Shown here: one piece after another, positions 28,767 to 48,584 of the stretch
Position numbering within the stretch: position 1 is the first letter of the stretch
How the letters are laid out: each line of letters starts with the position of its first letter
Source of the DNA: Candidatus Parvarchaeota archaeon
GTDB taxonomy: Archaea; Nanobdellota; Nanobdellia; CSSed11-243R1
Direction: 5' to 3'
Assembly (NCBI GenBank): GCA_015522785.1
Contig: WALP01000002.1
Span: 1-64,000, forward strand
Length of the DNA: 64,000 nucleotides
Program-made: the position numbers and the translations under genes
Notes under the pieces: generated by a model
What the model was told of the DNA's origin: nothing
Seen by the model: the letters and a program-made list of their open reading frames with translations, nothing else
Databases searched by the model: none

Positions 28767-29822
28767 TTAATCACCAAGTGATTCTACATCTATCCCTGAA
28801 TTATCGGTTGATTCTTCACGCTTGTAAAAATCAGAAAGATTGTCAATCACATTTGAGATGTATGTTAATGGTGATTTATTCTTCTCATAGCTTCCGCCTC
28901 TAAGGGCAGTTATCAAACCTACACCCACTTCAGCTATCCATGCCGGTAATCTTTTTACATAATTTATGGTACCATTGAATGTAGATCCATCAGTAGTTCC
29001 GTTAAACGTTCCATTATATGGAGAGTCATAGTTAACAAAGTGGATATTTCCACTTTCAGTTCCATTGACAGATGTTGGAGGAATAACTCCCGCAACATGT
29101 TGGACAACAGGTTCTTTATATGTTAGCAAACTATCCAAAACACCTTTTGCACTTGAAGCATCAAATGTTCCGTTATATGCATTAGCTGCTCCAACAAGCA
29201 ATGAAACCAAACCTGCGGCAACCATTGCTGCCTTGCCATTGCTGAACCTATGTGCGTCCCACTTCAAAATATAAGTATTATCAACTTTTTCCAAATCTGC
29301 TCCTGTTTTTTCAACAAAATCATCCAATTTTTCCTTGTCAATTGTGTACTCGCCATCAAATTCTTTCAATGCAATTCCTATGTAATCAGATTTAATCAAA
29401 TGGAATTTTTCTCTATCATCTTCACTTATTTTACTATGAACCTTTTTAGGCACATAAACCGCAGCTACGGTATCTGGATAAGTGTCCACATTTCTAGGAG
29501 TTGAAAGAATTTTTTCTAGCTTTGAAGAATCACTTTTAGGATTATATATTTTCTTGCCAAACAAAAAATCATTTATTTTTTCATGTATTGTTTTCTTCGG
29601 ATTATAATCTAATTCTTCTGAAGAATTATAATCTGTTTTATCATTTTCATTAGTTTGATTTGCAGATTGTATTGGATTAGCATCCATTTTATAACCCATT
29701 TCATTATCTTCATCTTCAAACACAGCCCCACATTCTGGACAGACTTTTGCATCTACAGGTATTATTGCCCCGCACACAGGACACTCAGCTACATTTTCAA
29801 CATTATCTTGTTCATCAACCAT
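28767..29822 (-). CDS. Zinc-ribbon membrane protein
   Basis: 351 residues. N-terminal zinc ribbon CPVCGAIIPVDAKVCPECG, acidic linker, an alpha/beta region (about 130-190), a hydrophobic segment (AAMVAAGLVSLLVGAANAY), then a stretch with repeated YNGTF/FNGT units that are potential N-glycosylation sites. A second weak hydrophobic segment lies near 300. The topology suggests a cytosolic zinc ribbon and an exposed glycosylated loop. It lies 26 bases upstream of the giant surface-protein gene on the same strand, so they may be co-expressed. Family not recognised. Confidence 0.75.
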   Translation of the reverse strand: MVDEQDNVENVAECPVCGAIIPVDAKVCPECGAVFEDEDNEMGYKMDANPIQSANQTNENDKTDYNSSEELDYNPKKTIHEKINDFLFGKKIYNPKSDSSKLEKILSTPRNVDTYPDTVAAVYVPKKVHSKISEDDREKFHLIKSDYIGIALKEFDGEYTIDKEKLDDFVEKTGADLEKVDNTYILKWDAHRFSNGKAAMVAAGLVSLLVGAANAYNGTFDASSAKGVLDSLLTYKEPVVQHVAGVIPPTSVNGTESGNIHFVNYDSPYNGTFNGTTDGSTFNGTINYVKRLPAWIAEVGVGLITALRGGSYEKNKSPLTYISNVIDNLSDFYKREESTDNSGIDVESLGD

Positions 29823-29911: not shown

Positions 29912-29930
29912 AAAAAAGCGCCAGGGGCAG
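29912..29930. repeat. 19-bp direct copy of the tRNA-Ser 3' end (att-like)
   Basis: AAAAAAGCGCCAGGGGCAG is identical to 42699-42717, which spans the last 12 bases of tRNA-Ser and 7 bases beyond. A GC-rich exact match of this kind in AT-rich DNA is unlikely by chance. It marks the probable far boundary of an inserted 12.8-kb segment. No other part of a tRNA is present here. Confidence 0.6.
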
Positions 29931-29941
29931 AACCTAGAATC

Positions 29942-29997
29942 TGAGTACACCGCCATGTCCAAAATTTTGACGTTCTTCAATATGTACGCAGTACTCA
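29942..29997. other. Inverted repeat beside the att-like copy
   Basis: TGAGTAC (29942-29948) and GTACTCA (29991-29997) form a 7-bp inverted repeat, with AAAATTTT between them. It sits 12 bases inside the att-like sequence and could be a recombinase arm site or part of a decayed RNA. No gene lies in 29823-30053. Confidence 0.35.
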
Positions 29998-30053
29998 AAT
30001 ATAAATTCTATTGTAGTGGAGGATACAAATTTTAATCAATAAAATAGAAAAAA

Positions 30054-30167
30054 TTAATGCTTAGCAAGCTCTTTAAGTAGCCATTCATCTTCCTCTATAA
30101 TTTTATCAGCAATTTTCATTAGCGCTGCAATAATTCTCTCCTCATCTAAAGAAATATATTTATTCAT
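30054..30167 (-). CDS. 37-residue ORF downstream of DUF2283 gene
   Basis: ATG 30167 to TAA 30054, preceded by AAGGAAA as ribosome-binding site and starting 2 bases after the DUF2283 stop. The peptide is helical and acidic (LDEERIIAALMKIADKIIEE). It may be the partner of the DUF2283 protein in a toxin-antitoxin-like pair, but nothing proves this. Confidence 0.5.
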   Translation of the reverse strand: MNKYISLDEERIIAALMKIADKIIEEDEWLLKELAKH

Positions 30168-30169
30168 TT

Positions 30170-30505
30170 TTATTTCCTTCTTGCGCTAACTGCAACTGCC
30201 TGAGGAATAGTCACTGTATGGGCCGGCACTTTTATATTTGGCTCCATTAATGCCAAGTGAACAAAAATAACAAGTGGGTTGCCCATCCTTGTAGTTAGAG
30301 AAGCTCTTTTGATTTTTTTAAGCATATACTTTGGGATACCGAATAATTTTGACACGTGAAAGATTTCTATCCCTGAAACGTTCCCATCAAAATCTATGTC
30401 AATTGTATAATCATCTCCAATCTCTATAGAATACCTTACGTTAGAATCTTTCTTGTGAATAAATAACGAATCTCCAGAAAAATCATAATTAAATTCATAC
30501 TTCAT
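30170..30505 (-). CDS. DUF2283-like protein with C-terminal extension
   Basis: 111 residues from ATG 30505, which overlaps the stop of the decayed upstream frame (ATGA). The N-terminal half matches the short DUF2283 fold (YDFSGDSLFIHKKD to IDFDGNVSGIEIFHVSKLFG). DUF2283 proteins are often antitoxin-like or found beside mobile elements. The basic C-terminal 45 residues are not recognised. Confidence 0.65.
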   Translation of the reverse strand: MKYEFNYDFSGDSLFIHKKDSNVRYSIEIGDDYTIDIDFDGNVSGIEIFHVSKLFGIPKYMLKKIKRASLTTRMGNPLVIFVHLALMEPNIKVPAHTVTIPQAVAVSARRK

Positions 30506-30942
30506 TTTTTCCACCTTTTATCACCCAATTTTCTTTGCAGTTTCTTATTAATTATATATGTCGTCTTAACTATAAATTTTTCTTTTCCCTTTATAACCTT
30601 TGGCATCAAAGCCACGAAAAGAGAACGAACGTTGCTCAATTTAAAATATAAATCAACAGTATTGTTATATTTCCTACTTTTAGAAACTTTTTCTAGGTCA
30701 GCAGGATGAGTCAGGTTATATTTTATAGTTTCAGCACCAATATTCCTTTCCTACCTACTGCTCTTGCCCAAGCGTGAGAGCGAAAACTCTGCAGTCCAAT
30801 TATATCCCTTTCCTCTATCTTCCTCAATTTCTTCTTCCAATATGAGATATTGTATTCCATTTGAACAAATAAGCCATCGAATATATTTAATATTTTGGCA
30901 AATGGCGAGCCTAAATGTTCTATTAGTTGTGTTTTCTAATTT
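30502..30942 (-). pseudogene. Decayed ORF with one in-frame TAG
   Basis: One minus-strand frame is open for 147 codons except for a single TAG at 30753-30751. There is no ATG or GTG near its upstream end. The 3' part encodes a basic C-terminus (IVKTTYIINKKLQRKLGD) and ends in an ATGA overlap with the DUF2283 start, as an intact operon partner would. It is best read as a gene that lost its start and gained a stop. No pyrrolysine genes are seen, so recoding is unsupported. Confidence 0.5.
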
Positions 30943-31002
30943 TTAACTCATAATTTTAATTCATAAAGAAAAATTTTTAACTAAAATGCGATAGGTTATA
31001 TT

Positions 31003-32484
31003 ATGGATTTAAAGAGAATTGTAATATTTACATTAGTAATTTTATTTGCTCTATCCTTAACCACCAACGTGGCACATGGTGTTGTAGTCATCCGCCCATG
31101 TAACACTAGCGATGACTGCATGAAAGAACTTAAAATGTGCCCCGAAACACCACCCCCACACTGCAACTGTAAAATACCCTGCACGAATGGGAGATGTGGT
31201 GTGATGGGAACATTTTCTTCGAATTTAAGCGATGACTATTTCATCGAAAAAGCAAATGAGTATATTATATCAAAAGTTGGTGAGGATTTTTACAAAGAGC
31301 ACTATCAATTCTACAAAATCCAAAGAGGCATTTACTATGACACAAATGTCAAGGTACTTTACACTTTATCCATTGAAGGATATAACTTACCTGCAAGAGG
31401 TATTATATTCAGCTGCAGCGGGAAGATTACTCTTGTTAAATTATATGTGAATAACTCTTCGAATGTTATAAATAAATCAAAAGCCGTAGAGATCGCTAAT
31501 TCTTTTCTCATTCAAAATAATATAACCCCTCCAAAAAAGTATGATATATATTTTGAATATGTATATGGCAAGCCGGAACTCAACTGGCGTATCCACTATT
31601 TACATCCAAGCTATTGGATTTCAATAGATTATAATACAGGTAAAATCGTAAGTGAAACAGTTACTTCATCGAGACCATCTAAGGGCACAATCATGGGAAC
31701 ATCAGTTACATTTTCTATATTTATTGGTGGAATATTAATAACTTATTTTATTGCCCTCAGGAAATTAAATAAGCGGGACAAAATAATCGGCCTTTCGATG
31801 GTTGCATCTGTTTTATGGTATATGTTCTCCTACACATTTATTGCCCCGTTTGTATTCAAAATAATTTCTAATGACCCAAATGTCGTGCTTTCAGTGCCAC
31901 AGCCATTTATAATGGTGTTACTAACTGTTTATCTACCGGTAGGTGTTTTCATTGCAACATTATTGGCACTAGTGTATTATCACAAAGATGACATAAAACG
32001 AGGTGAGTCACCAAGTGTGTTGTGGTATCTCGTCCCAATTACTGTTGCACTTGCCTTATTAGCAGATAGTAACAACATATGGCAAGGTATGCCTTCTCTA
32101 ATTAATTATTTATCTAACGTGTTGATACATTACGAAGGTGGATGCTGGTCAATGTTTGAAAGCATTTTCGAATCAACCCTAATAACATGGATAGTAATAC
32201 CAATCTCAATAAATATTGCATACACGTTTAGAGAAAATTATAAATTTGCAAGGAATATTATTCTAGCAGGTGTAATTTTAGCAGTCATAACATGCATACC
32301 TAGTATATATGCAATAAGGATTAACGCAGTTATAATCTTATTATCAATAATTGTTGCAATGTATAACAAGTGGTTCTTTAAAGGGAGAAAGATAATCATA
32401 ACTATTGCCATCTTCATAGCAGCTGCGGTCATTACTAAATTTCTATGGGGGCTCATGCAACCACTTTGCATTTATATTCCCTGA
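31003..32484 (+). CDS. Exported-domain membrane protein, PepSY-like region plus polytopic C-terminus
   Basis: 493 residues. Signal peptide or anchor (about 5-26), then a cysteine-rich segment (PCNTSDDCMKELKMC to CNCKIPCTNGRCG) likely stabilised by disulfides or metal. A PepSY-like stretch follows (EIANSFLIQNN to YWISIDYNTGKIVSE, about 165-225). The last 260 residues carry about seven membrane helices. No transport or enzyme motif is recognised. TATA-like sequence lies before ATG 31003. It lies in the putative island. Confidence 0.75.
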   Translation: MDLKRIVIFTLVILFALSLTTNVAHGVVVIRPCNTSDDCMKELKMCPETPPPHCNCKIPCTNGRCGVMGTFSSNLSDDYFIEKANEYIISKVGEDFYKEHYQFYKIQRGIYYDTNVKVLYTLSIEGYNLPARGIIFSCSGKITLVKLYVNNSSNVINKSKAVEIANSFLIQNNITPPKKYDIYFEYVYGKPELNWRIHYLHPSYWISIDYNTGKIVSETVTSSRPSKGTIMGTSVTFSIFIGGILITYFIALRKLNKRDKIIGLSMVASVLWYMFSYTFIAPFVFKIISNDPNVVLSVPQPFIMVLLTVYLPVGVFIATLLALVYYHKDDIKRGESPSVLWYLVPITVALALLADSNNIWQGMPSLINYLSNVLIHYEGGCWSMFESIFESTLITWIVIPISINIAYTFRENYKFARNIILAGVILAVITCIPSIYAIRINAVIILLSIIVAMYNKWFFKGRKIIITIAIFIAAAVITKFLWGLMQPLCIYIP

Positions 32485-32494
32485 ATTGAATTGG

Positions 32495-32713
32495 CTATTT
32501 CTTGCGAAGTTCATTCTGAGCACCATTGCCATCTTCCTCGCTTTGAATTTCCTCCTTTAGAACTTTCCACCAAGCCGGCAACCTTTCTTGAATTTCAAAC
32601 GCCATAGCCAACACCAAAAGAATTAGAGAGGAAGGGTTTATTAGGAATAAATTGTTCAACGCGACTGGACAGCAAAAGTTGCCAAGAAAAGGTTTTCTCT
32701 TGTTTGTTTCCAA
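32495..32713 (-). CDS. Small hypothetical protein
   Basis: 72 residues with a hydrophobic centre (LFLINPSSLILLVLAMAF) and a charged C-terminus. No recognised family and no strong ribosome-binding site. It lies downstream of the four-gene accessory operon. It could be real or a chance frame. Confidence 0.4.
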   Translation of the reverse strand: METNKRKPFLGNFCCPVALNNLFLINPSSLILLVLAMAFEIQERLPAWWKVLKEEIQSEEDGNGAQNELRKK

Positions 32714-32769
32714 TGTTGTTAGACGGGGGTATATAATAATATATTTATTTGTTGTTTAGTTAAGTTGGA

Positions 32770-33651
32770 TTATTTGCCGACTGCCTTCTTAATCTGCCAT
32801 TTCAATCTCCTAAGAGACTCCAAATCCAAAGCCCTCTGCCCGCTTAACATTGATGTGAAAAGTATTGGGATCTTGCCATTTGACAATTCTACTCTATGAA
32901 ATCCCTCTTTTTCAAAATTACTATCATCAATTTTAATTTTCTTATTAGCTGCATCATAATACATTATTATCTTGGAAGAGAGAGCATTAGCAACGACGAT
33001 TACCTTAGGCTCAATCATATCTATCAATCCCAATGATATCTCTAACTGATCCTTTCCAAACTCATTTAAAGAGACACTTTGGATTTTACTCTTGCTCATT
33101 TTCTCCTTATAATTTATACATTTCTTTAAATCATCTTGAGACGTTGTTCTGTAGAAAAATAAATCAATATGTTCCCATTTGTTTTCATCCCCAAAGACAT
33201 ATTTTGAAATCTCTTTTAACTTTTTAAAATACTTATTATACCTACTTTTTGCTACCTTTTCAAAGTCGATCAACTCATTACACATCTTGATAAATTCCTC
33301 TGTATATTGCCGCTTACCATTGGACTTCTTGACTTTTCTTTCTCGTTTTTCTTCCGGCCACCATTCAAAACTTTCTACATCTTTTATGAACCTAAATTCT
33401 TTAGGCACTGGAAGTTTTTTAGCTTCTTCGAGAATCTTCTTAACACCATCATCTGAAAGAGAAGGATTTAACCCAATAAATAAAATACCACCTTTATTAA
33501 ACTCAGAAATCAATAATGGAAAACATTTATTTGGTATCTTTTTCTTACTCTTCTTGTTTTTCTTCTCCGGGCACTTTATCTTATCTGGATTTTCCTCCCA
33601 CAGCCTTATAATTTGTTCGTTTATCTCCTTATTTTCCACTTCCATCACCAT
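32770..33651 (-). CDS. Uracil-DNA-glycosylase-fold-like protein
   Basis: 293 residues. The order of motifs resembles the UDG superfamily: ILFIGLNPSLSDDG (motif A-like), HIDLFFYRTT, IEPKVIVVANALSS (central strand) and PILFTSMLSGQRALDLESLRR (motif B-like, but without the usual HPSP). A charged insertion (about 85-120) follows motif A. Substrate and activity cannot be deduced. It is the last gene of the 36532-32770 operon and overlaps the gene before it by 23 bases. Confidence 0.6.
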   Translation of the reverse strand: MVMEVENKEINEQIIRLWEENPDKIKCPEKKNKKSKKKIPNKCFPLLISEFNKGGILFIGLNPSLSDDGVKKILEEAKKLPVPKEFRFIKDVESFEWWPEEKRERKVKKSNGKRQYTEEFIKMCNELIDFEKVAKSRYNKYFKKLKEISKYVFGDENKWEHIDLFFYRTTSQDDLKKCINYKEKMSKSKIQSVSLNEFGKDQLEISLGLIDMIEPKVIVVANALSSKIIMYYDAANKKIKIDDSNFEKEGFHRVELSNGKIPILFTSMLSGQRALDLESLRRLKWQIKKAVGK

Positions 33652-34435
33652 TTGGTTTACTATTTCTCACATATCCAATTATCGCATTATCCACTAACTT
33701 AGGGATAGAGGTATTCCATTTATTGTTACCCAAATCTTTTCTACTTAGTTTAAGTTCGCTTGATATTAATTGGAATTGTCTTAATACCTTAAAATATAAA
33801 TTACCCTCTTCATTTTTGTTGACATTTGGAATAGATTTTTGCCACTTCTCACTTTTCTTACTTTTACTTTTCTTCCACCTACTGTATAGAAAAAATAATA
33901 CATTCCCCCTATCTATTGGTGGGACAGTATCGGGAAGTAAAAAGTGCATTATTTTTGAATTTGCAACCAATTTCGGAGGGGTTTCATTATTCTCCCTCTT
34001 AGCCATAACGATTAAGCCATTAAAAATCAATAAAAGTATATCTTTTATTTCATCAAGATTAATCTCCTGAAATTTTTTTCCCCTTACTATTTCAAGCAAC
34101 TTCACAAAGTTCTTTTTATTACTAACAATTGACCTTTTAAAATCCTCAAACTCTGCCATTCTCGTATATTTATCCATTCTATGCATACCCCATGATGCAA
34201 GAGTGGCATATAGACATTCCATAAAGTATTCATTAGAAAACAACGAAATGTATTTTTCAGTGTCGTACTCTGTTTTTTTTACTGTATCAACAACCTTAAA
34301 GTAAAAATAAGCAGATGGCCCACCAAAGGTTTCCACACCCTTTTTAACATACTCGAGAAATTTCTTCTTATTCTTTATTAGCTCACTAATATTCTCTTTG
34401 TTCAACTTTCTTTCCCAACTAATCTTTTTACCCAA
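33629..34435 (-). CDS. Conserved-looking hypothetical protein of accessory operon
   Basis: 268 residues, helical, with ATLASWGMHRMDKYTRMAEFEDF and SKIMHFLLPDTVPPIDRGNV. Similar LLPD-VPPIDR strings occur in uncharacterised proteins I associate with restriction or defence neighbourhoods; this association is from memory and unverified. No catalytic motif is evident. Tightly coupled to the UDG-like gene (23-base overlap) and 16 bases after the Cdc48-N-like gene. Confidence 0.6.
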   Translation of the reverse strand: MGKKISWERKLNKENISELIKNKKKFLEYVKKGVETFGGPSAYFYFKVVDTVKKTEYDTEKYISLFSNEYFMECLYATLASWGMHRMDKYTRMAEFEDFKRSIVSNKKNFVKLLEIVRGKKFQEINLDEIKDILLLIFNGLIVMAKRENNETPPKLVANSKIMHFLLPDTVPPIDRGNVLFFLYSRWKKSKSKKSEKWQKSIPNVNKNEEGNLYFKVLRQFQLISSELKLSRKDLGNNKWNTSIPKLVDNAIIGYVRNSKPNGDGSGK

Positions 34436-34451
34436 AATCTCATCTCCTTTT

Positions 34452-35849
34452 TTACAGTATCATTATTCCACCATCATTATTGAATTTATCGTTGGTTATT
34501 TCTTCGCCCTTGAAGTTCTCTTTGTCTATTTCCTCCTGATGAATTGCAAAATCTTTATACCTCAATGTCAATCCCTTCGTGAAAAAGTCAGCCATGCAGT
34601 CGTCTATCTTTCCCGGCTCTGGAAAGAATTTACAACATTCTCTGAGAGTATCATAAACTTCCTTAAATGCATCATTCTTGAACTCGCTTACCTCTACCCC
34701 ACATATTTGCCTCAAAGATAACATGACAAGGTCGTCGTATTTCATAACTGGATTATACATAGAATCATACCATAGAGTAAAATATGTTCTTAACAGCTCA
34801 AAAAATATTTTGTCCTTGCTAATTTTTTCAAGTCTTTTTCTTAATTCCCTCGTCTTTTCCTCAAATTCTTTCTCTGCAACGGAAAATGGATCCTCTTTAA
34901 CCACATCATGTGACCCTTCATCCTTCACCTCTCCGCACTCGGGTAAATTCTCAAAAAACTTAACTGCCGCTCTATCGATATATGATGACTCGCATAAAGA
35001 CAGTATAACCTTAATTGTTTCCTCAGAAAGCTTTCTCCAGTTAGACTCATCAACAGAGTAAACCCTTTTGCCATTTACATGTTTCATAGATAATACTCCA
35101 TTGGCATGTAATGTTTTTAACACATCAATAACTCTAAAATCTCCAGACGTGGGAGAAGTAGATACATAATCCTTAAAAAGAAATGGATACACACCCTCTG
35201 TCAAGGCTCTTGCGATTAGTGAACCACTTGAATCTAAAAGATACCAATCTATATCAGATTCTGCTCCCGCCGTTGCATCGTATTTGAAAGTAACTTTGGT
35301 ATCCTTCGTGACTCTCCCTATTCCATTTGGTTCCACTTTCACTACAAAAAAATCTACGTCGTAAATTCTTGGCATTTCCTCATCAAGCATCTTGGTATTA
35401 CTACGAATTATATCAGAGAATAATGAAGGAATATCCTTAGAAACCGGAAAATTGACCTTTATTTTTTCATTCACTTGAACGATCCTATCTCTTAACATTT
35501 TGTTTGCTAGCTCCTGTGGAATGCTTAGTTCCAAATCATCAACATCATACGCAAGCACTACTTCTCTTGCCTCTGCAGATATATCTCTTCTTTCAATACT
35601 AACCTTTTCATTTATCCCAACATTCAATTCTCGCCTCAACAACCAATCAATGTATACTCTTCGCCCATTTTCTCCTGATGATTTAACTACTACAAACTTT
35701 GAGATAGATCCATCTTGATTACTAATACTCACTACATCACTATCTTTGAGCATAAGTTGCTTCATGATATACTCATCCAGCAAAACTATGTTAGGATTAC
35801 CATCTTGCAAAGGCCTCACAATACCCGAAACAACTTTTATTTCTTCCAT
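34452..35849 (-). CDS. Cdc48-N-domain-like protein without AAA module
   Basis: 465 residues. Residues about 1-180 resemble the two-lobed N domain of Cdc48/VAT: a double-psi barrel (VLLDEYIMKQLMLKDSDVVSI to KVSIERR) and a second lobe reaching FFVVKVEPNGIGRVTKDTKVTF. A winged-helix-like segment follows (FRVIDVLKTLHANGVLSM, about 245-285), then a helical C-terminus with several cysteines. No Walker motifs are present, so it is not an ATPase. It could be an adaptor linking a partner to DNA or to p97-type machinery. It starts 11 bases after the regulator gene. Confidence 0.6.
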   Translation of the reverse strand: MEEIKVVSGIVRPLQDGNPNIVLLDEYIMKQLMLKDSDVVSISNQDGSISKFVVVKSSGENGRRVYIDWLLRRELNVGINEKVSIERRDISAEAREVVLAYDVDDLELSIPQELANKMLRDRIVQVNEKIKVNFPVSKDIPSLFSDIIRSNTKMLDEEMPRIYDVDFFVVKVEPNGIGRVTKDTKVTFKYDATAGAESDIDWYLLDSSGSLIARALTEGVYPFLFKDYVSTSPTSGDFRVIDVLKTLHANGVLSMKHVNGKRVYSVDESNWRKLSEETIKVILSLCESSYIDRAAVKFFENLPECGEVKDEGSHDVVKEDPFSVAEKEFEEKTRELRKRLEKISKDKIFFELLRTYFTLWYDSMYNPVMKYDDLVMLSLRQICGVEVSEFKNDAFKEVYDTLRECCKFFPEPGKIDDCMADFFTKGLTLRYKDFAIHQEEIDKENFKGEEITNDKFNNDGGIMIL

Positions 35850-35860
35850 TATATCACCTC

Positions 35861-36532
35861 TTATTTTTTGTAATTAGAAACAAATTCATTGAATATGTTT
35901 GCATAAGCGGCATTTCTAACAAGATACTTTTGTATTGGTCTGATTAATCTGTAAATCTTCTTAGCTTCCTCTGGAGCATCGCGCGAAGGTGATTTCAAAA
36001 CTGCTAGCCCATCTATTATATTGTCGAGTATAGATGAAAGAGACATGTCCACATAAAAACTCACCTTAAGTAAGTTACATAAGAAGTTTAAAACCATCAT
36101 TTGCAAGAGATTACTCTCAGACAATTTTTGTATCCTTCTACGAACATCATTAAGAGTAGTTTTTACTTTCTTTTCACTTATTTTTCCCATCTCCAACATA
36201 TCATAGAGATTATATTCAACTCTAAGCGACATCTTTTCCATAAGATATTCCATAAATTTAGAAATATCAAAATACAGGTGCCTTTCTCTACCAACTTTTT
36301 TACTCTCTAAAAGTTCAAGAGAAACAACTGGCGAATTCTTAACAAGTTTTTCCAAATGTTCTTGTATTGTTGAATGTTTCAAAGTTACATTACCTCTTTT
36401 TAATCTTTTTTCTAAATCGACAATCCTTGTTGGCCTACCTTCATAAGTATTAGATGCACAAATCAACACAATTTCCCCTAACCTAAATGAATAAAAAAGC
36501 CTGCCAAATTTATCTTCAATTGAGAATTTCAT
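35861..36532 (-). CDS. Winged-helix transcriptional regulator-like protein
   Basis: 223 residues. The N-terminal 100 residues look like a winged HTH (IVDLEKRLKRGNVTLKHSTIQEHLEKL, then a hairpin KKVGRERHLYFDI). The rest is helical and could be a sensor or dimerisation domain. As the promoter-proximal gene of the four-gene operon it is the likely autoregulator. A TATA-like CTTTATATA is at about 36556-36564. Confidence 0.65.
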   Translation of the reverse strand: MKFSIEDKFGRLFYSFRLGEIVLICASNTYEGRPTRIVDLEKRLKRGNVTLKHSTIQEHLEKLVKNSPVVSLELLESKKVGRERHLYFDISKFMEYLMEKMSLRVEYNLYDMLEMGKISEKKVKTTLNDVRRRIQKLSESNLLQMMVLNFLCNLLKVSFYVDMSLSSILDNIIDGLAVLKSPSRDAPEEAKKIYRLIRPIQKYLVRNAAYANIFNEFVSNYKK

Positions 36533-36689
36533 ATAAACATATAAGCAATTCTTGTATATAAAGGGCGACCCTGCGAATTAAAGTTTGAGTATTTTGCGAG
36601 CATCCTAGAGAAACGAGTATTAATAGATTAAAGAGTGGGGAAACCTGCGAATTCATTTATAAATGATCACCGACATCCTCTCGCTAAGA
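36533..36689. promoter_or_regulatory. Promoter region of accessory operon with short repeat
   Basis: 157 bases between TFB and the regulator. On the minus strand CTTTATATA lies about 25 bases upstream of the regulator ATG. CCTGCGAATT occurs twice (about 36571 and 36648), a possible operator half-site pair. No gene is seen. Confidence 0.45.
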
Positions 36690-37529
36690 TTAATCCCCGC
36701 TAATCCTCTCAGCAAACTTTTTCAGCTCGACAACATCAATTTTGTCGATTAGTTTTTGGAAATTTTCGCGGAGGGCTGGCTCAGAAACGTGGGCATATCT
36801 GGCAATATCCCTTTGGTTCATAGGTATCTTCAAAATCGCGGCAGCCACATAAATTGAAGCCGCAGCGAGCATCATCGGGTTGTCAGTTGTCTTTGCCTTT
36901 GCTGCTTTCATAGCAACAGTCGCAAGCTGTCCGTTGTAACCCATGTCGGAGCTTATTCTTAGGATGTAAGAATCAACATTCCCAACAGGCTTCATAGGTA
37001 TCTTTAGCTCCCTGCAGATTTTCCTGTAGGCGCGAAGAACTTTCACCCGGCTGACTCCGTAAGTTTCCTCAAAATCGTCAAAAAAGACAGGTATGCCCTG
37101 CCGCTTTGAGACAATGTAAGTTGCAGCTGCGAGTATCTCAAGCTTTGAGGCGCGCTTCGTGAGTTTCCTTTCAACGCATTCCCTGCATATTTTTATGACT
37201 CCAGCTTCGACTTGCTTTTTTAGATCCATCTTTTTTATTTCGGCGTAGAATGGAGCCATAGCTTTTTCCACATTTGTCTTAAGAATTCCGTTGAGTATGA
37301 CTGCCATCTTTTTCTTTTTTGGATTGACAAGAACTTTCACGGCTTTGCTTCCGTGCATAGCCTCTATAATTGGGACTTCCTCGCTAATCACAAAGCCGCA
37401 GTTTCGGCAGACCAGCTCGGATCTTTTGTCGTCAAAATAAAGTTTTGTCGAGCCGCATTCAGGACATTTGTCTATAAATTCAACTTGATTCCGAGGGGCA
37501 GAGAAGATAGTTTTTCTCAAAGGCACCAC
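36690..37529 (-). CDS. tfb: Transcription factor B paralogue
   Basis: 279 residues. N-terminal zinc ribbon CPECGSTKLYFDDKRSELVCRNCG, then two cyclin folds (about 100-185 and 195-275; AAATYIVSKRQGIPV and AAASIYVAAAILKIP). The B-reader/linker between ribbon and first fold is atypical (EVPIIEAMHGSKAVKVLV) and lacks the usual DRGPEWR-like string. It may be the only TFB of the genome or a specialised copy. It sits within the putative island. Confidence 0.9.
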   Translation of the reverse strand: MVPLRKTIFSAPRNQVEFIDKCPECGSTKLYFDDKRSELVCRNCGFVISEEVPIIEAMHGSKAVKVLVNPKKKKMAVILNGILKTNVEKAMAPFYAEIKKMDLKKQVEAGVIKICRECVERKLTKRASKLEILAAATYIVSKRQGIPVFFDDFEETYGVSRVKVLRAYRKICRELKIPMKPVGNVDSYILRISSDMGYNGQLATVAMKAAKAKTTDNPMMLAAASIYVAAAILKIPMNQRDIARYAHVSEPALRENFQKLIDKIDVVELKKFAERISGD

Positions 37530-37634
37530 CTACTTTATAAATACAGAAAACTTTATAAGGAGTTCGGGTGGTTTATAAAGATTTTTAATAATCCACCAAA
37601 ATGTTTATATCTATAAGCCGAAATTACACTACTT

Positions 37635-38132
37635 ATGCCGAAGCTGATAAAGGATGTAGAAGAGATATCCGAAATTGAGAAATGGATGAATGAATCTGAA
37701 AAAGAAGCAAAAAGGTCTAAATGCATAAAATCGCAAGTTGGTGTTGTTATAGTTAAAGATGGTAAGATTATATCAAAAGGTTATAATAAAATAATGACCG
37801 AAGACCCAAATCTTGTAAAAGATGGTTATTGTAACCCATGCATTCGAGAAGAAATCCATGATAATTCTCTAGTCGAAAGGTGTTATGCCATCCATGCTGA
37901 ACAAATGGCACTAATACATGCAAAAGAAGATTTAGAAAGTGCGATAATGTATCATGTTAAGTTAAAACATGGAAAGCGAGTCCCAATAGAATCTCCGACA
38001 TGTACAGTATGCAACAGAATGATAAAAGAAGCAGGTGTTTATTTTGTGTGTCTCCAGGAGGAGGGATATGTTATTTATTCACCCAATGAAATTGTCGAAA
38101 TATCATTTAAAAAACTTTTAGGTCACATATAA
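37635..38132 (+). CDS. Cytidine/deoxycytidylate deaminase family protein
   Basis: 165 residues with the deaminase zinc motifs HAEQMAL (HxE) and PTCTVCNRM (PCxxC-like), spaced as in dCMP deaminases. A two-cysteine insert before the HAE (GYCNPCIREE) is as in dCMP deaminase relatives. Substrate (dCMP, free base or nucleic acid) unknown. It is divergent from TFB and converges on an ASCH gene with a 10-base overlap. Confidence 0.85.
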   Translation: MPKLIKDVEEISEIEKWMNESEKEAKRSKCIKSQVGVVIVKDGKIISKGYNKIMTEDPNLVKDGYCNPCIREEIHDNSLVERCYAIHAEQMALIHAKEDLESAIMYHVKLKHGKRVPIESPTCTVCNRMIKEAGVYFVCLQEEGYVIYSPNEIVEISFKKLLGHI

Positions 38133-38554
38133 TTGTCAAGGTTATTATATTTACCAAACTTATCTAATTTAACGATATCTTCGGGCACGTTAAAAAATCC
38201 AAGTCTACCGAGATATTTTACGGGATCAATCTGATGAACGTCCCCTAAGACAAAGCCATACACAGGATATCTATTTGGGGTCGATAAAGAGAGGTGATTT
38301 TCTCTATCCTCCAAGAACATACTTCTATTCCTATACACCTTAACATCAGTTAAGTCAGCATACCCCACGATGTATCCTCTTGTAAGATCCTCCAAATCAA
38401 AATTATAAAAGCTAATAGCCCCTCTATCTACCCCCTTTGAAGCGTGAATCAAAAAGTAACCTCTAAACTTTGTATTCCATGTACGTATTTCTACTGTTTT
38501 TTTCCCTCGGAGGATTAGTTCTACCCATGGTTGTTTAATGGACAAACATTTCAT
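38123..38554 (-). CDS. ASCH-domain protein 1
   Basis: 143 residues. The ASCH start LSIKQPWVELILRGKKTVEIRTW and strand RGYFLIHASKG are clear. ASCH domains are PUA-related beta barrels that bind or process RNA or modified nucleosides. Its ATG overlaps the stop of the second ASCH gene by 4 bases, so the pair is translationally coupled. Confidence 0.85.
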   Translation of the reverse strand: MKCLSIKQPWVELILRGKKTVEIRTWNTKFRGYFLIHASKGVDRGAISFYNFDLEDLTRGYIVGYADLTDVKVYRNRSMFLEDRENHLSLSTPNRYPVYGFVLGDVHQIDPVKYLGRLGFFNVPEDIVKLDKFGKYNNLDNYM

Positions 38555-38895
38555 TCTATCACCTTAAAAAAGATTGCCAACACACCGTTTTCATTTTCCT
38601 TTTCTTCTGGATAGTATTTACGCATTCTCTCAATTTGCTCGTCTAATGTAAGAGATTCATGAGCAAGATAATTTTTCGGGATAAAGGAAAATAGATCTTT
38701 AAAACTAGAAAACCTAGCTAGTCCTTTAACATATACTCTAATTTCACCATCACTACTTAATCTCTTGAATATTATTTCATCACCTAAATTTATCTTTCTT
38801 CTTTTTTCATCGAAAAGCCGAACTTCCACTATTTTTTTACCGGACTTTATCCATTGAAATGGTTCATCGGCAAGATGCATTTCGTGTATTACCAT
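38551..38895 (-). CDS. ASCH-domain protein 2
   Basis: 114 residues with a second, divergent ASCH fold (DEPFQWIKSGKKIVEVRLFDEKR and NLGDEIIFKRL). Similar small proteins include acetylcytidine amidohydrolases of the YqfB type, but the catalytic set cannot be confirmed here. One base separates it from the class I aaRS-like gene, so the three genes form one operon. Confidence 0.82.
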   Translation of the reverse strand: MVIHEMHLADEPFQWIKSGKKIVEVRLFDEKRRKINLGDEIIFKRLSSDGEIRVYVKGLARFSSFKDLFSFIPKNYLAHESLTLDEQIERMRKYYPEEKENENGVLAIFFKVIE

Positions 38896-38896
38896 T

Positions 38897-40000
38897 TTAA
38901 TTACTCAATTTCTCACTGAATAACGCTTTGAAATATTCAACAGTATAATTCCTAAAAAGCTTTTTTGGATCCCTCGCCCACTCACGAGTTTCATCAAGTA
39001 ATATCGTCAGTCCATCTTCCCCATATTTATTTACAAGTTCGGGGTAGGTCATTAAATATGGTGGAATGTAATCATAAACCCCTTCTTTTACATAAACACT
39101 TTTAGAAAATTTGGCCCCCGACCAATCTTCAATTAATGGAGTATATATCCTCGTTGGAAGGTCTTCTATTCCATATCCCCATAATCCTAAAACATGATTC
39201 ATTAATTCACCCATCCCAACCCAATCAGCACCATCCACCATTAGATTTAACGCATTTGCTTTCTTCGCCTCCTCAACAAAGTATCTTTCCTTTATTGCAT
39301 TTCTTATAGGTGTATTAAAATCAACAAACTCTTTATTGTCGGGTGTTATCTCTATCTCATATGTGCCATGGGTAAAACATTTCATACTTAACCGCGCGTA
39401 ATTGTCCCTAAGTTCTTCTATCTTCAGCGTCTCACAATCTTCATCCATATACCTACACTCATTACATGGAAATCGTATCTTAAGCTTACCCTCTTTTGGA
39501 TTCAAAATAGGGATAAACTCTTCTGCACGGTTCATAATTTCTAATAAAGATGATCTAACAAAAGGTTTTTCCTGAAAATCTTTATAAGACATTATTGTAT
39601 ATTCTATACCTGTCTCCCCGCTTAGCCAGCTCATAAGATCAACGAAGGAATCCATATAACTATCTAATTTGTTTGTATCCCTCATAGGTGTATCAAGAAG
39701 CATCAATTGATATGTAATTCCGCCTCGTTCTATTTTATATCCCGGAGCGTTCTCTAACTGTTCAAAAAGAATCCGCGAGGGTAGATCAAAATGTTCCTTA
39801 ATAAATTCACCTATTGCAAAAGCTGTCATCAATCCAGTCATCGTTCCTAAATGTGGATAACCATTTGGTTGTGAAGAGTAATGTATTTGAACTTCCTTCT
39901 TGTTTTTCACCCTCCACCGAAAATAGTTCTCCATTGTTCCATTTATATGTGCTATTACTACCGGTGGATACAATACATCAGATACGTTCCTATTAACCAT
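38897..40000 (-). CDS. Class I aminoacyl-tRNA synthetase-like protein (LysRS-I-like), short
   Basis: 367 residues from ATG 40000; a TATA-like TTATAAAAAA 20-30 bases upstream favours this start over an in-frame Met at 40045. The HIGH-type motif is PNGYPHLGTM and the KMSKS-type motif is GAKFSKSVY. A zinc-knuckle-like CNECRYMDEDC lies between them. It ends soon after KFSKS, so the long helical anticodon-binding region of LysRS-I is missing. It may therefore charge something other than full tRNA, or act as a paralogue. It is the promoter-proximal gene of an operon with two ASCH genes. Confidence 0.7.
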   Translation of the reverse strand: MVNRNVSDVLYPPVVIAHINGTMENYFRWRVKNKKEVQIHYSSQPNGYPHLGTMTGLMTAFAIGEFIKEHFDLPSRILFEQLENAPGYKIERGGITYQLMLLDTPMRDTNKLDSYMDSFVDLMSWLSGETGIEYTIMSYKDFQEKPFVRSSLLEIMNRAEEFIPILNPKEGKLKIRFPCNECRYMDEDCETLKIEELRDNYARLSMKCFTHGTYEIEITPDNKEFVDFNTPIRNAIKERYFVEEAKKANALNLMVDGADWVGMGELMNHVLGLWGYGIEDLPTRIYTPLIEDWSGAKFSKSVYVKEGVYDYIPPYLMTYPELVNKYGEDGLTILLDETREWARDPKKLFRNYTVEYFKALFSEKLSN

Positions 40001-40056
40001 GAATATTTCTATAAATCTATTTTTTATAAGGTTATCACTAAGCAATTATAAGAAGC

Positions 40057-40245
40057 TCACTCTCTCAAATCCCTAATCATCTTCTTAAATGGGTTGTCTT
40101 CCTCTTCTTTGTCTCGCGAATTGCTTTGTTTTTGGTATTGCGTCCACCTCTCAAGAAAAATCTTCCAGGCGTATTTCTCAGGGATTGCCCAGCGGAATTT
40201 GTTTCCGTTTTGGAATTCCAGCTGAATGAATGCCTTGAAGTCCAT
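40057..40245 (-). CDS. Small hypothetical protein
   Basis: 62 residues from ATG 40245, preceded by GAGGTGGT. The sequence (DFKAFIQLEFQNGNKFRWAI) suggests a small beta-alpha fold followed by a charged tail. No family is recognised. Confidence 0.6.
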   Translation of the reverse strand: MDFKAFIQLEFQNGNKFRWAIPEKYAWKIFLERWTQYQKQSNSRDKEEEDNPFKKMIRDLRE

Positions 40246-40290
40246 TTTACCACCTCGAATTTTTTTCAATATTGAAAATAAATAACAACC

Positions 40291-40515
40291 TCACTTGTAA
40301 AGCGCGAGATACTTTTCCTTCTTCGCCTTCCCAGTAATAATATCCATTAAGTATTTCTTCCTCAACTCCTTCAATCTCTTTATCCTCTCCTTGTTATGCG
40401 GGTTACTCATCCAGATTTTGTTGTGAAGCCCGCTCATTACAAAATACCACTTTTCAAGATATTTGAGCTCCTCAAGTTCTCTTTTCCGGATTTCCTTTAA
40501 GCTGTACCTAACCAT
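40291..40515 (-). CDS. Small basic helical protein
   Basis: 74 residues from ATG 40515, preceded by GGTGGTG. Rich in Lys, Arg and Glu (LKEIRKRELEELKYLEKWYF), helical. No family is recognised. It is divergent from the YdjM-like membrane gene. Confidence 0.6.
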   Translation of the reverse strand: MVRYSLKEIRKRELEELKYLEKWYFVMSGLHNKIWMSNPHNKERIKRLKELRKKYLMDIITGKAKKEKYLALYK

Positions 40516-40575
40516 TTGCACCACCGACTTAGAAAGCAAAAGAGTCCTTATTAGGAATGCAAGAAAAAGTAAGGT

Positions 40576-41016
40576 ATGCTTGGAGTTACTCACGCCTTGA
40601 TCTCGCTTGCCCTGGCTAAGTCGCTTGGCTTGGTTTCGGTGAAAGATTATTTGAAAATCTTCGTGCTGGTTTTCTACGCCATGCTCCCCGATATTGACAT
40701 GCCTTACTCGGGGCTTGGGAAAATCGCCAAACCTTTTTCAGAACATCTATACTCAAAGTTCGGACACAGGAATGTGACCCACTCTTTGCTTTTCATGCTT
40801 TTGGTTACTTCGCCTCTTGCTATAAATCAAGGTTTGTATTTCCTTGCCTTGCTCGGCTATGGCTCACACTTAATAGAAGACATGCTAACGTATACAGGTG
40901 TCCCTCTTTTTTATCCTTCAAAGAAAAATTTTGTAATCCTCGGCGGACCGCTAATTACCGGCGGGTGGATTGAGTTACTCTTTTCGCTTGCGAGCTTGGC
41001 GGTTTTCATAGTTTAG
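40576..41016 (+). CDS. Membrane-bound metal-dependent hydrolase (YdjM/DUF457-like)
   Basis: 146 residues with four to five membrane helices and the family's polar motifs in order: THALISLAL, MLPDIDMP, HRNVTHSLL and YGSHLIEDMLT. These His/Asp residues would bind metal at the membrane face. The biochemical role of the family is poorly defined. Confidence 0.82.
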   Translation: MLGVTHALISLALAKSLGLVSVKDYLKIFVLVFYAMLPDIDMPYSGLGKIAKPFSEHLYSKFGHRNVTHSLLFMLLVTSPLAINQGLYFLALLGYGSHLIEDMLTYTGVPLFYPSKKNFVILGGPLITGGWIELLFSLASLAVFIV

Positions 41017-41055
41017 TAAGTAAAGTTTTTAAATGGCTTAATTGTAGATATATGT

Positions 41056-41655
41056 ATGTATGTATATTTTCCAAACAAATTAAATTCCATAGAGTTAGTT
41101 ATACCACCAAAATACATTTCCGAAGACATACTCGGGACACCCAATAATAACTTGGAGTTAAATAAACTATTCGATAAAACAATGAACCTAGCAAACGCAC
41201 TAGCCAATAAAGAAAAGCCAATAACCCCTGAAGAATATGTAAGGAAAATAGCAGGGATAATATGGAAATGGTATTTAGTGCAAAAAATTAAAGGTATCTG
41301 GAACAAAGACAGTAGAGATGCAATCCAAATACTAACCTTAATTGGTAAAAACAGCGATGAAACAATAAAAGAACAGATTACAAAACTCACAAGTTACAGA
41401 GATAGCTTAAAATTCAACAAAGATATACCCCCAGAAGTAAATAAACTTACTCTCAAAAAAAGAGAGGTAGTCACAACAATTGTAGAAACTATGAAAAACA
41501 TTAATTTAAAAGAGTTCACCCCAAGAAAAAAATTACTTCTCATGGCCGCATTGTCTATACTACTAATAAGATTGTTCGGATTAAGCCACTACAATAAAAA
41601 AATAGCTACCTCTGTAAATAAAGAGATAGACAATTTTTTAGAGTTAGCTATATAG
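41056..41655 (+). CDS. Hypothetical helical protein paired with a PIN-like gene
   Basis: 199 residues, helical throughout, with a late hydrophobic helix (LLLMAALSILLIRLFG) that may be a membrane segment. No recognised family. The next gene begins 5 bases after its stop. The position suggests an antitoxin-like or regulatory partner, without sequence proof. Confidence 0.55.
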   Translation: MYVYFPNKLNSIELVIPPKYISEDILGTPNNNLELNKLFDKTMNLANALANKEKPITPEEYVRKIAGIIWKWYLVQKIKGIWNKDSRDAIQILTLIGKNSDETIKEQITKLTSYRDSLKFNKDIPPEVNKLTLKKREVVTTIVETMKNINLKEFTPRKKLLLMAALSILLIRLFGLSHYNKKIATSVNKEIDNFLELAI

Positions 41656-41660
41656 AGGTA

Positions 41661-42293
41661 ATGTATGTGGGAAACGAAGTTTTTTCTTTCGACACTAATA
41701 TAATTTTAAATAGCGTATTAAGTCACACAAACTCCCATAAACTACTCGAAATTATTATCAAATCTGATAACAATGAGAATTTCACGATCACCTCAACAGT
41801 AAATTCAGAAGCTAAGAATATAATATCAACCTTAGAAGAATTAATAGATAAGTATGTAAATGTTAGGGGAGAAGTAAAACTTGAAGACCTTGCCGAAACA
41901 ACTGAGGAAAAGAAACACTTATCTCTTCTGAAACATATAATTGATGATAGAGGAATAGACGAGATAATTGACATAAAAGCGAAAATGAGAAGATATGTTA
42001 ATGTATGGAAAGCAAATACAATTTTAATCGACTATGGAATGGATGATAAAGTAATAAGGAATAAAGTTCTGGATATACTCACTAACGTTCTGTTTGATGT
42101 AAAAGACAAAAGACATATTGCCTTATTTTTAGGGTTCATAAAAGAATATCAAGAGGGTATATTCGTAACTTACGACAAATTTAGAGGAACAAAAATCCCA
42201 CTTAGAGAAGTAATAACTAATATAGAAAAGGCAGTAAAAAGAAAACTCAAAATTATGGATGCTAAATCTTGTGTCCATAAGTTACAAAAATGA
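41661..42293 (+). CDS. PIN-domain-like protein
   Basis: 210 residues. A PIN-type acidic set can be read in order: Asp in FSFDTNIILNSV, Glu in VNSEAKNI, Asp in DVKDKRHIALFLGF and Asp in FVTYDKFRG. Such domains are Mg-dependent ribonucleases, often toxins. The central helical insert is long for a VapC (usually about 130 residues). A frame-disrupted small membrane ORF begins at its stop codon. Confidence 0.65.
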   Translation: MYVGNEVFSFDTNIILNSVLSHTNSHKLLEIIIKSDNNENFTITSTVNSEAKNIISTLEELIDKYVNVRGEVKLEDLAETTEEKKHLSLLKHIIDDRGIDEIIDIKAKMRRYVNVWKANTILIDYGMDDKVIRNKVLDILTNVLFDVKDKRHIALFLGFIKEYQEGIFVTYDKFRGTKIPLREVITNIEKAVKRKLKIMDAKSCVHKLQK

Positions 42294-42557
42294 AAAAGAA
42301 GAGTTAATATCAAAAATTGGAACACCGATGGAGTAATTATACTTTTAATAATACTCATTTTATCAACAGCGCTTTACAATGAATTTAATAAGAGTAATGA
42401 CCCAACGGTTAAAGAAGTAAACGATAACACTTTTGGTGTTATACCTTTATTAATACAGTTTGTTACATCGCCACCCGATATCGCTGCTATTGTGACTATC
42501 ATTTTGGCAATTTATTGGTTCTTCCCACGTAACAATTATGGTGGTGGACTAGCTTAG
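42290..42557 (+). pseudogene. Small membrane-protein ORF disrupted by a one-base indel
   Basis: ATG 42290 overlaps the PIN-gene stop (ATGA) but meets a stop after five codons. If the AAAAA run at 42293-42297 were one base shorter, a single frame would run to TAG 42557. It would encode two membrane helices (VIILLIILILSTAL and IAAIVTIILAIYWFF). The frame from 42294 onward is open without any ATG. It is a recent frameshift or a homopolymer sequencing error. Confidence 0.55.
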
Positions 42558-42595
42558 CTCCCATTCCTTATTAATCCTCTTTTTCTTCGCAGAGT

Positions 42596-42705
42596 ATGAT
42601 TGGGCGGGAAGATGAGCTGGAAAAAATTCAGGAGCACATAAAACACAGGCAAAGTGTTTTAATTCTCGGCAGGAAAGGCATCGGCAAAATTGGATTAGAA
42701 AAAAG
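42596..42705 (+). pseudogene. Truncated AAA+/archaeal ATPase N-terminus
   Basis: MIGREDELEKIQEHIKHRQ followed by SVLILGRKGIGK is the standard start of an archaeal STAND/AAA ATPase. The Walker A is intact up to the lysine (the next residue is Ile, not Thr/Ser). Coding similarity ends within ten codons, exactly where the att-like repeat and tRNA-Ser begin (42699). The rest of the gene is missing, as expected for a gene cut by an integration event. Confidence 0.6.
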
Positions 42706-42717
42706 CGCCAGGGGCAG
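42699..42717. repeat. att-like site at the tRNA-Ser 3' end
   Basis: The 19 bases identical to 29912-29930. They cover the T-stem 3' strand, acceptor 3' strand and discriminator of tRNA-Ser plus the 7 bases after it. tRNA 3' ends are the classic integration targets of archaeal elements, and the segment lying 3' of this tRNA is the putative island. Confidence 0.6.
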
Positions 42718-42953
42718 GAATTTCGTACGCTTTCTTTCCGCAACTTGCGCTTTCTTTCTGGAAAGAAAGGGCAGTTCGAACCTGCATGCCCTTGCGGGCA
42801 CCCGCTCACCCAAGTTTCTCTTTCGCAAGCGTTTCTCTTTTCGAAAGAGAAAGGCTTCTCGAGGCGAGCGCGTTGATTCCCCAATCCATCTTCCCTTATT
42901 TTGGTAAAGCTTTTCTTCGGGAAGAAAAGATTTCCGGGTTCCGCCACCCTGGC
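42706..42953 (-). tRNA. tRNA-Ser(CGA) with three introns, one in the T-loop
   Basis: Acceptor GCCAGGG (42953-42947) with CCCTGGC, discriminator G 42706, variable stem GCCC/GGGC. Anticodon CGA is 42861-42859. All three introns have BHB geometry. D-loop: 42878-42932, central helix CCCG/UGGG, restoring GG18-19. Anticodon loop 37/38: 42807-42857, exon helix CUCGC/GCGGG, central helix CUCG/UGGG. T-loop 59/60: 42720-42774, exon helix GCAGG/CCUGC, central helix UUCG/CGAA, bulges AAC and AUU. Mature length is 87 nt, without encoded CCA. Introns are filled by pyrimidine/purine hairpins. Confidence 0.9.
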
Positions 42954-48044: not shown

Positions 48045-48107
48045 GAGAAATAGTTATTCCTGAGCAGTTATAAAATTTTCTAAAAAAAGAAAAAAAAGGA
48101 AGGCGAA

Positions 48108-48584
48108 TTACCTCGTTGTTGTATCTGTATCTACACCCATTGCTTGTGCTGCGTTTACTGCTTGAAATGCACTAAATGATCCACCTGTACCAATAACAAG
48201 AATGTCCTCATTTGGTGCGTTTATTCCAAGTATAGTTGTTAATCCTTCTGTTGCATCTGTGTTGTAGCTTCCGTCTGCGTTAAGGACGATTCCGCCAATC
48301 ATTGCTTTGTTACCATATATGAATTTTACCCAAGCAATTTGTATGTCATCTCCGTATTGCTGCTTCAATTCTCTCTCAGTTTGCATTTGGGTTATCAAAA
48401 GCTCGTGCTCTAATTTGTAGCTTTGGCTCCAAGACTGTCCACCTGTATATGCTGGTACCTCACCACTTATTGATGAAATAGAGTACCCTGTCATCTTTAC
48501 CAGTCCGAATACTGCGACAATTGCGACGATTGCTATAACAGTCATAGAAATCATCCAAATGTTGCTATCATTTGTTTTTGCCAT
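48108..48584 (-). CDS. Membrane-anchored exported protein
   Basis: 158 residues: N-terminal anchor (WMISMTVIAIVAIVAVFGLV), then an extracytoplasmic domain with a helical part and a strand-rich C-terminus. No family is recognised. GGAGGTAAA precedes the ATG, one of the strongest ribosome-binding sites in the window, so it may be highly expressed. Confidence 0.7.
   Translation of the reverse strand: MAKTNDSNIWMISMTVIAIVAIVAVFGLVKMTGYSISSISGEVPAYTGGQSWSQSYKLEHELLITQMQTERELKQQYGDDIQIAWVKFIYGNKAMIGGIVLNADGSYNTDATEGLTTILGINAPNEDILVIGTGGSFSAFQAVNAAQAMGVDTDTTTR

Follow-up and report, generated by a model that had tools for sequence, protein, structure and literature searches.

This report concerns a 12.8-kb segment (positions 29912-42717) of contig WALP01000002.1, from the draft genome of a Candidatus Parvarchaeota archaeon (assembly GCA_015522785.1); "the window" is the whole stretch of 64,000 nucleotides that was analysed. 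The segment lies at the 3' end of a gene for tRNA-Ser(CGA) and is most probably an integrated mobile element (genomic island) whose integrase end was later lost. An earlier note, made from the sequence alone, had put forward the integrated-island reading; it now gains support from empty sites in relatives, from a related element with a recombinase in a sister genome, and from a distal arm common to the two elements. The host draft (G000; metagenome-type, 30 contigs, given as 68.8% complete) was compared with relatives designated G001 to G005, among them the sister genome G002 (Nanoarchaeota archaeon AUK188) and G003, which belongs to another genus.

The repeat, its tRNA gene and the genes between

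The segment is bounded by a 19-bp direct repeat, CTGCCCCTGGCGCTTTTTT in the sense of the tRNA, with both copies on the minus strand. The tRNA-proximal attachment (att) copy lies at 42699-42717; the distal copy, at 29912-29930, is the displaced former tRNA 3' end, followed by native flank that is also present in G001, G002, and G004. Each copy consists of the final 12 nt of the tRNA and 7 nt of flank, in the orientation expected of insertion into a tRNA 3' end, just as the earlier note had described. Counts of the 14-mer CTGCCCCTGGCGCT, with at most one mismatch, agree: the host draft (578,669 bases) has it at two places, which are the two repeat copies, so that the repeat does not recur through the genome in the way the note had named as telling against an island. 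G002 has two matches and G001 one, and the reversed control pattern has none in any of these three genomes.

The target gene occupies 42706-42953 on the minus strand, as read from the sequence and by comparison with G001, G002, G003, and G004; its 3' end therefore points into the island, as insertion requires. Comparison with G001, G002, and G004 gives it three introns (D arm, anticodon loop, and T loop) and a last exon of 15 nt. The T-loop intron (42721-42775, minus strand, limits uncertain by 1-2 bases) was placed by the same comparison and by a predicted hairpin. Neither ARAGORN (bacterial settings) nor Rfam (gathering scores) calls a tRNA at 42706-42953. When the T-loop stretch is excised by script, ARAGORN recognises tRNA-Ser(CGA) in G001, G002, and G004; the G000 gene, in which the other introns remain, still goes unrecognised. 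As a side observation, stretches of 42706-42953, mostly intronic, recur at 80-93% identity in five other G000 contigs (C25, C26, C11, C10, and C3), and G002 has T-loop introns at two or more additional tRNA-like ends; a spread of tRNA introns within this genus is possible.

From the distal end inward, the island holds a DUF2283 protein (30170-30514, minus strand; Pfam 6.6e-10) and a 493-aa protein (31003-32484, plus strand), probably membrane-bound as judged by eye, which belongs to no known family in the database scans and has no match in phage records. There follow a small gene with an EIQxRLPxWW motif (32495-32713, minus strand) and a four-gene operon (32770-36532, minus strand) for proteins of 293 aa, 268 aa, 465 aa with a CDC48-N-like domain, and 223 aa. 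Outside G000 the matches of the 465-aa protein are longer frames, mostly 755-856 aa, that resemble Cdc48 proper. Next comes a TFB paralogue (36690-37529, minus strand), which the earlier note had already recognised and which Pfam confirms (TFIIB 5.2e-13, TFIIB zinc ribbon 5.3e-10). Between it and a YdjM-family membrane protein (40576-41016, plus strand; Pfam 3.4e-26) lies cargo on both strands (37635-40045): a dCMP-deaminase-like gene (plus), two ASCH genes (minus), and a gene likened to aminoacyl-tRNA synthetases (aaRS-like, minus). Two genes for proteins of 199 and 210 aa with no family assigned (41056-42293, plus strand) precede the last feature, 36 codons from the start of an AAA-type ATPase gene (42596-42703, plus strand). 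The note's remark that this ATPase is cut at the tRNA holds: the piece runs from 42596 to about 42703 and ends there.

Some of these names fared less well than others. Neither Pfam nor NCBIfam supports "aaRS-like", a name resting on motifs picked out by eye, or "PIN-like", as the note had called the 210-aa protein, and a uracil-DNA-glycosylase-like identity for the 293-aa protein, likewise suggested by motifs, gained no support. PADLOC and PHROGs were each run on ten island proteins. The sole PADLOC match is a marginal one of the DUF2283 protein to JukA (E 0.0057), and PHROGs matched nothing beyond a deaminase, a protein of ASCH type, and a hydrolase; neither result backs an identification as a known virus or defence island. 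Four cargo proteins, used one at a time to scan viral_contigs, had no relatives there, sequence searches against solved structures were of no help, and the structure models were unusable (mean pLDDT 36.6 for the aaRS-like and 34.8 for the 293-aa protein). The gene content is patchy across the 57 genomes surveyed: the aaRS-like protein occurs in one (its own), the 268-aa operon protein in two, and the 199-aa protein in one. A defence or addiction role of the four-gene operon would fit its setting, as a hypothesis.

Empty sites, an occupied site and competing readings

Evidence for insertion comes from the chromosomal flanks. The HerA-like ATPase of the right flank (42994-44313) was found in five of the six genomes searched, G000 included, and had no match in G005. 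In G001 and G004 the tRNA, upstream of HerA, joins by its 3' end directly to the sequence left of 29912, so the empty site that the earlier note had proposed to look for exists in two relatives. By local alignment the native flank of G000 matches those of G001 (86/109), G002 (83/96), and G004 (72/107) with scores above all 500 shuffles, and the island side of the window tRNA aligns to the same flanks no better than shuffles do (49, 115, and 141 of 500 reach its score). In G003 the homologues of the left flank (genes at 22.4-28.7 kb) lie about 6 kb from HerA, with other sequence beside the tRNA-Ser. The note had said that relatives keeping the 12.8-kb content next to unrelated flanks would count against an island; no relative examined keeps it, and only TFB, YdjM, and the ATPase co-occur elsewhere.

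Three features of the flanks deserve separate mention. The native gene just left of the island (28767-29822) has no protein match in G001 to G005, although the region upstream is conserved; since G001 carries an NGT-repeat protein in its place, its product may be a fast-changing surface protein. On the other side, at 45495-48584, two genes are found in G000, G001, and G002 between neighbours that adjoin each other in G003 and G004, a pair apparently gained in this genus. The HerA of G003 (L046:9816-12368, G003:C1) carries, after its P-loop, an intein with a LAGLIDADG-like domain (Intein_splicing 4.4e-27, LAGLIDADG_3 1.3e-19).

The sister genome G002, whose HerA is 90% identical to that of G000, supplies an occupied site. 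Its tRNA-Ser end is directly adjoined by a gene for a 394-aa tyrosine recombinase (Pfam Phage_integrase 2.1e-19), with a SAM-like N domain and a C-terminal zinc ribbon that both fall just under their cut-offs, and then by HsdM, RusA, and HsdS before contig C6 ends. A second copy of the tRNA end, with native flank, lies near the start of contig C4. In both genomes the sequence beside the distal copy is closely similar: the distal arm of the window (29931-30045, minus strand) is identical to that at the G002:C4 junction at 102/115 positions, against 79/95 in the adjoining native flank, and nothing resembling it is present at the empty site of G001. Beside the core, the two G002 arms (AGAATCGTGGTGCACCGCC and AGAATCTGAGTACACCGCC) repeat each other in inverted orientation, as recombinase-binding arms would. 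Further inward two short stretches (at about 32554-32772) match G002:C4 at 76% and 71%, around the small EIQxRLPxWW gene; the motif recurs in the G002 element and in another element of G001 (described below), and one other match, in L145, looks unrelated.

The common arm and small gene, together with a tRNA that abuts an ATPase piece longer in three relatives, lead us to regard the window island as a relative of the G002 element that lacks the integrase end. The window retains the distal arm; the proximal arm and the integrase are absent from the tRNA-proximal end, where G000 has just the 36-codon piece of an ATPase with longer homologues in G001, G002, and G003 (none was found in G004 or G005). 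That no integrase is recognisable, as the earlier note had said, stands: Pfam gave no integrase match in the island open reading frames that were scanned, and a tblastn search of the island with the G002 integrase gave nothing better than E = 0.61, so an integrase hidden in the island was rejected.

TFB, YdjM, and the ATPase form a close neighbour group in G001 and G003 at sites not tied to this tRNA. The window keeps their order but with cargo of lower GC in between (TFB 0.443 and the YdjM segment 0.416, inserts 0.348 and 0.304); G002 keeps the ATPase, and no TFB of this kind was found there. The identities do not all point the same way. The G000 TFB is 46% identical to that of G001 and 47% to that of G003, which are 55% identical to each other, and these values would speak for a foreign copy; those of YdjM (58, 43, and 44%, the 58% being G000 to G001, its nearest) would not. 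The start of the ATPase (17/31 to G001, 12/26 to G002, and 17/31 to G003, with 72% between G001 and G002) is too short to decide, though identity to the sister genome is below expectation.

Taken together, these observations suggest the following course of events. Site-specific recombination, probably catalysed by a tyrosine recombinase like that of G002, would have brought the element into the 3' end of tRNA-Ser(CGA). The element's own site would have carried some 15 bp copied from the tRNA 3' end and flanked by inverted arms, so that insertion rebuilt the tRNA and displaced the old 3' end by 12.8 kb; on sequence comparison, the empty and occupied sites show this rebuilt tRNA and displaced end. 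A later deletion, starting inside the ATPase and stopping at the first base past the tRNA, may then have removed the proximal arm, the integrase, and most of the ATPase; the cell would not tolerate losing the tRNA. With its integrase end gone the island would no longer be self-mobile. What is left looks like a mosaic in which a TFB-YdjM-ATPase module was opened by other cargo, with the four-gene operon beside it; any effect on the host would come through the cargo, for example through altered promoter choice by the extra TFB.

Several points weigh against this reading. The island has neither an integrase nor a remnant of one by the searches given above, and all that G000 otherwise offers is a XerA-like gene at 28%, in a draft of limited completeness. 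The proposed deletion rests on one junction, and the G002 element lies on two contigs (C6 and C4), its unity being suggested by the single pair of 14-mer copies. Composition is indecisive: the shift that the earlier note had suggested looking for is there in tetranucleotides (mean distance 0.24 for the island against 0.18 for the flanks), yet it is moderate, with three of 44 flank windows reaching the island mean, and the GC gap is small (0.348 against 0.362 and 0.365). In G001 and G003 the TFB-YdjM-ATPase group sits away from this tRNA, so that this part of the island may be captured host DNA, and YdjM is closest to G001, as vertical descent predicts.

These last points feed the rival that survives best, which we hold possible without favouring it: only the left part (about 29931 to 32.8 kb) would be an old element, and the TFB-YdjM-ATPase part would be host chromosome joined to the tRNA by inversion or illegitimate recombination, perhaps at an A run that occurs both in the ATPase (GAAAAAA) and in the flank of the tRNA. 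The only stretches found to be homologous to the G002 element are 29931-30045 and about 32554-32772, and the module has its counterparts in G001 and G003 outside the tRNA site, with YdjM nearest to G001. The G000 TFB, however, is an outlier to the other two, and the ATPase start is more distant from the sister genome than the 72% between G002 and G001, or the HerA identity, would lead one to expect, which indicates a foreign copy, on little sequence.

A rather unlikely alternative dispenses with the deletion: the element would have arrived in its present form, its att site lying within the ATPase gene, through the action of a recombinase whose gene is elsewhere. In its favour, the cut in the ATPase falls exactly at the repeat, which extends the ATPase frame by a few codons; against it, the frame joined across the repeat runs into a stop only a few codons from the left end, and the G002 element carries both an integrase and an inverted arm at the end where the window has the ATPase piece. 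It is improbable that the segment is ancestral and was lost from G001 and G004: TFB, YdjM, and the ATPase do have relatives in the family, but the repeat is of a tRNA end, a related but different element sits at the same place in G002, and the cargo proteins occur in one or two of the 57 genomes. An assembly chimera or chance repeat, as a short repeat in a 30-contig metagenome-type draft might suggest, is hardly credible when an independent assembly (G002) has both junction types and a homologous arm and two other genomes are empty, and the 14-mer counts (2, 2, and 1; control 0) led us to reject chance.

The recombinase family and the length of its target

A family profile was built from six relatives, one of them a truncated copy from G001. 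It recovered 193 relatives from genome contigs, and 79 loci were retained; four from viral contigs brought the survey to 83. The hosts are DPANN archaea, Methanoperedens, other archaea, and some drafts labelled as bacteria, and close relatives of the G002 enzyme were seen in G001, G002, and G003. A same-strand tRNA ends 0-250 bases upstream of the recombinase at 34 of the 79 loci (of the 83) with at least 150 bases upstream of the match, a figure that is a lower bound, since the intron-rich tRNA known in G002 escaped ARAGORN. Across the 83 loci as a whole, 38 same-strand tRNAs are predicted within 300 bases upstream, of 67 tRNAs in 1.23 million bases overall; none is predicted upstream on the opposite strand or close to where the integrase ends downstream. 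Because some loci closely resemble others, not all of these counts are independent. The target tRNAs are of ten amino-acid types, most often Ser, Thr, and Leu.

The same survey gave no sign that TFB or YdjM are regular partners of the integrase: each occurs within 3 kb downstream at one of the 83 loci, with one further YdjM match 5.7 kb away on the opposite side of the integrase, and the G003 ATPase used as a query had no match in these neighbourhoods. A small, decayed element lies in contig C13 of G001 (L096:8660-12100, reverse strand), at an intron-bearing tRNA other than tRNA-Ser(CGA). Its integrase is of the same family (about 51-55%) and ends inside the catalytic domain; an RLPxWW gene is present, and a 12-bp core recurs 3.4 kb downstream.

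The T-loop intron begins a few bases beyond the repeat, and the earlier note had suggested that it may itself limit the target. The comparisons do not support this. The intron is present at empty (G001 and G004) as well as occupied sites (G000 and G002), and the tRNA-Ser of G003 has an anticodon-loop intron only; the T-loop intron therefore did not arrive with the element. The tRNA-Ser(CGA) gene has three introns in G000 and two in G002, and in both genomes the insertion lies downstream of the last of them. Where related elements occupy other tRNAs, cores measure 12-13 bp and extend 11-14 nt into the tRNA, with spans relative to its end of -12..+1, -14..-1, -11..+1, and -12..0. Such cores were found at four of 33 loci (score of at least 12), against none of 66 control searches, the best control reaching 11; the other 29 loci show no such repeat in the available sequence, and the sample of cores is therefore small. 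Three of 36 loci with fewer than 1,500 bases downstream were left out, and the search supersedes an earlier exact-match script that gave three candidates among 35 loci. Distal arms at L124, L158, and L166 show no clear inverted repeat; that of G001:C13 has a likely one by eye, which the script did not rank first.

The tRNAs of the four core-bearing elements have no T-loop intron, by ARAGORN or direct reading. Because short cores thus occur at intron-less T loops, the recombinase itself seems to account for the short core, in a small sample, and the intron is probably not what sets the target. The site in the window suggests that a T-loop intron gives no protection against this family. Tentatively, a very short target (the last 12-15 nt) could open to these elements even tRNA genes in which a T-loop intron isolates a 15-nt last exon, and the protection that introns have been proposed to give would then fail, at least for introns upstream of the target. 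That proposal, that tRNA introns guard against integration, is credited to Randau and Soell in the part of PMC3293823 available to us, where direct evidence is said to be lacking; the available part of Badel et al. 2021 (PMC8371274) in turn reports archaeal recombinase cores of 8, 11, and 13 bp and the use of intron-bearing tRNAs. If the short-target reading is right, the intron-rich tRNAs of these Nanoarchaeia would offer a natural test of the proposal.

Relation to known integrative elements

The locus marks an integration hot spot in Nanoarchaeia at which empty, occupied, and decayed states can be followed within one family of genomes. Its cargo, an extra TFB and proteins nearly without relatives in 57 genomes, illustrates what such elements can bring to a very small genome. 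In the top-ranked literature records, at title and abstract level, we found no description of this site or of tRNA-linked elements of this lineage, which is not proof of absence. The available text of PMC8371274 contains no occurrence of Nanoarchaeota or DPANN, and restricts the SNJ2 integrase family to Halobacteria.

The mechanism itself would be an ordinary one, and the element a newly seen member of the tRNA-integrated elements. As far as the available part of that source describes them, the classical archaeal tyrosine integrases (on the pNOB8, SNJ2, and XerA side) resemble what is seen in G002: an intact integrase on the same strand beside a rebuilt tRNA, with a short core at the 3' end. 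Unlike those systems, the window element lacks an integrase, and the G002 enzyme has a C-terminal zinc ribbon; that some elements have lost their integrase is recorded there as well. Integration of the SSV (suicidal) type, in which an att site within the integrase gene leads to its splitting, does not fit G002, where the 394-aa integrase is whole and lies beside the att site. The pNOB8-type arrangement is present in G002 and absent from the window, and the window island is therefore filed only as a decayed relative of pNOB8-type integration.

Among phage records, the nearest integrases are those of Geoglobus acetivorans pleomorphic virus 1 (GacPV1; 42.2% over 98%) and ThalV2 (40.5% over 95%), two of the Geoglobus and Archaeoglobus pleomorphic viruses (GacPV1, ThalV2, and AvPV1; PMC10919331, in the part available, and the annotation of BK065156). 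AvPV1, by that account, has 27-nt repeats and an integrase beside that one of its att sites which lies outside the tRNA, unlike G002, and no pleolipovirus VP4-like fusion or VP3-like protein was found among the scanned island proteins, a scan with no usable structure model behind it. Also comparable is the G001:C13 element, which has the same integrase family and the same RLPxWW gene as the G002 relative of the window and differs in its tRNA and its truncated integrase. The insertion at tRNA-Thr of Caldiarchaeum subterraneum, as described in the available part of PMC3293823, is similar in that an element sits at an archaeal tRNA with an intron and a piece of the tRNA is displaced; there an intron is thought to have been brought by the element, whereas here the T-loop intron lies upstream of the core and is found at empty sites too.

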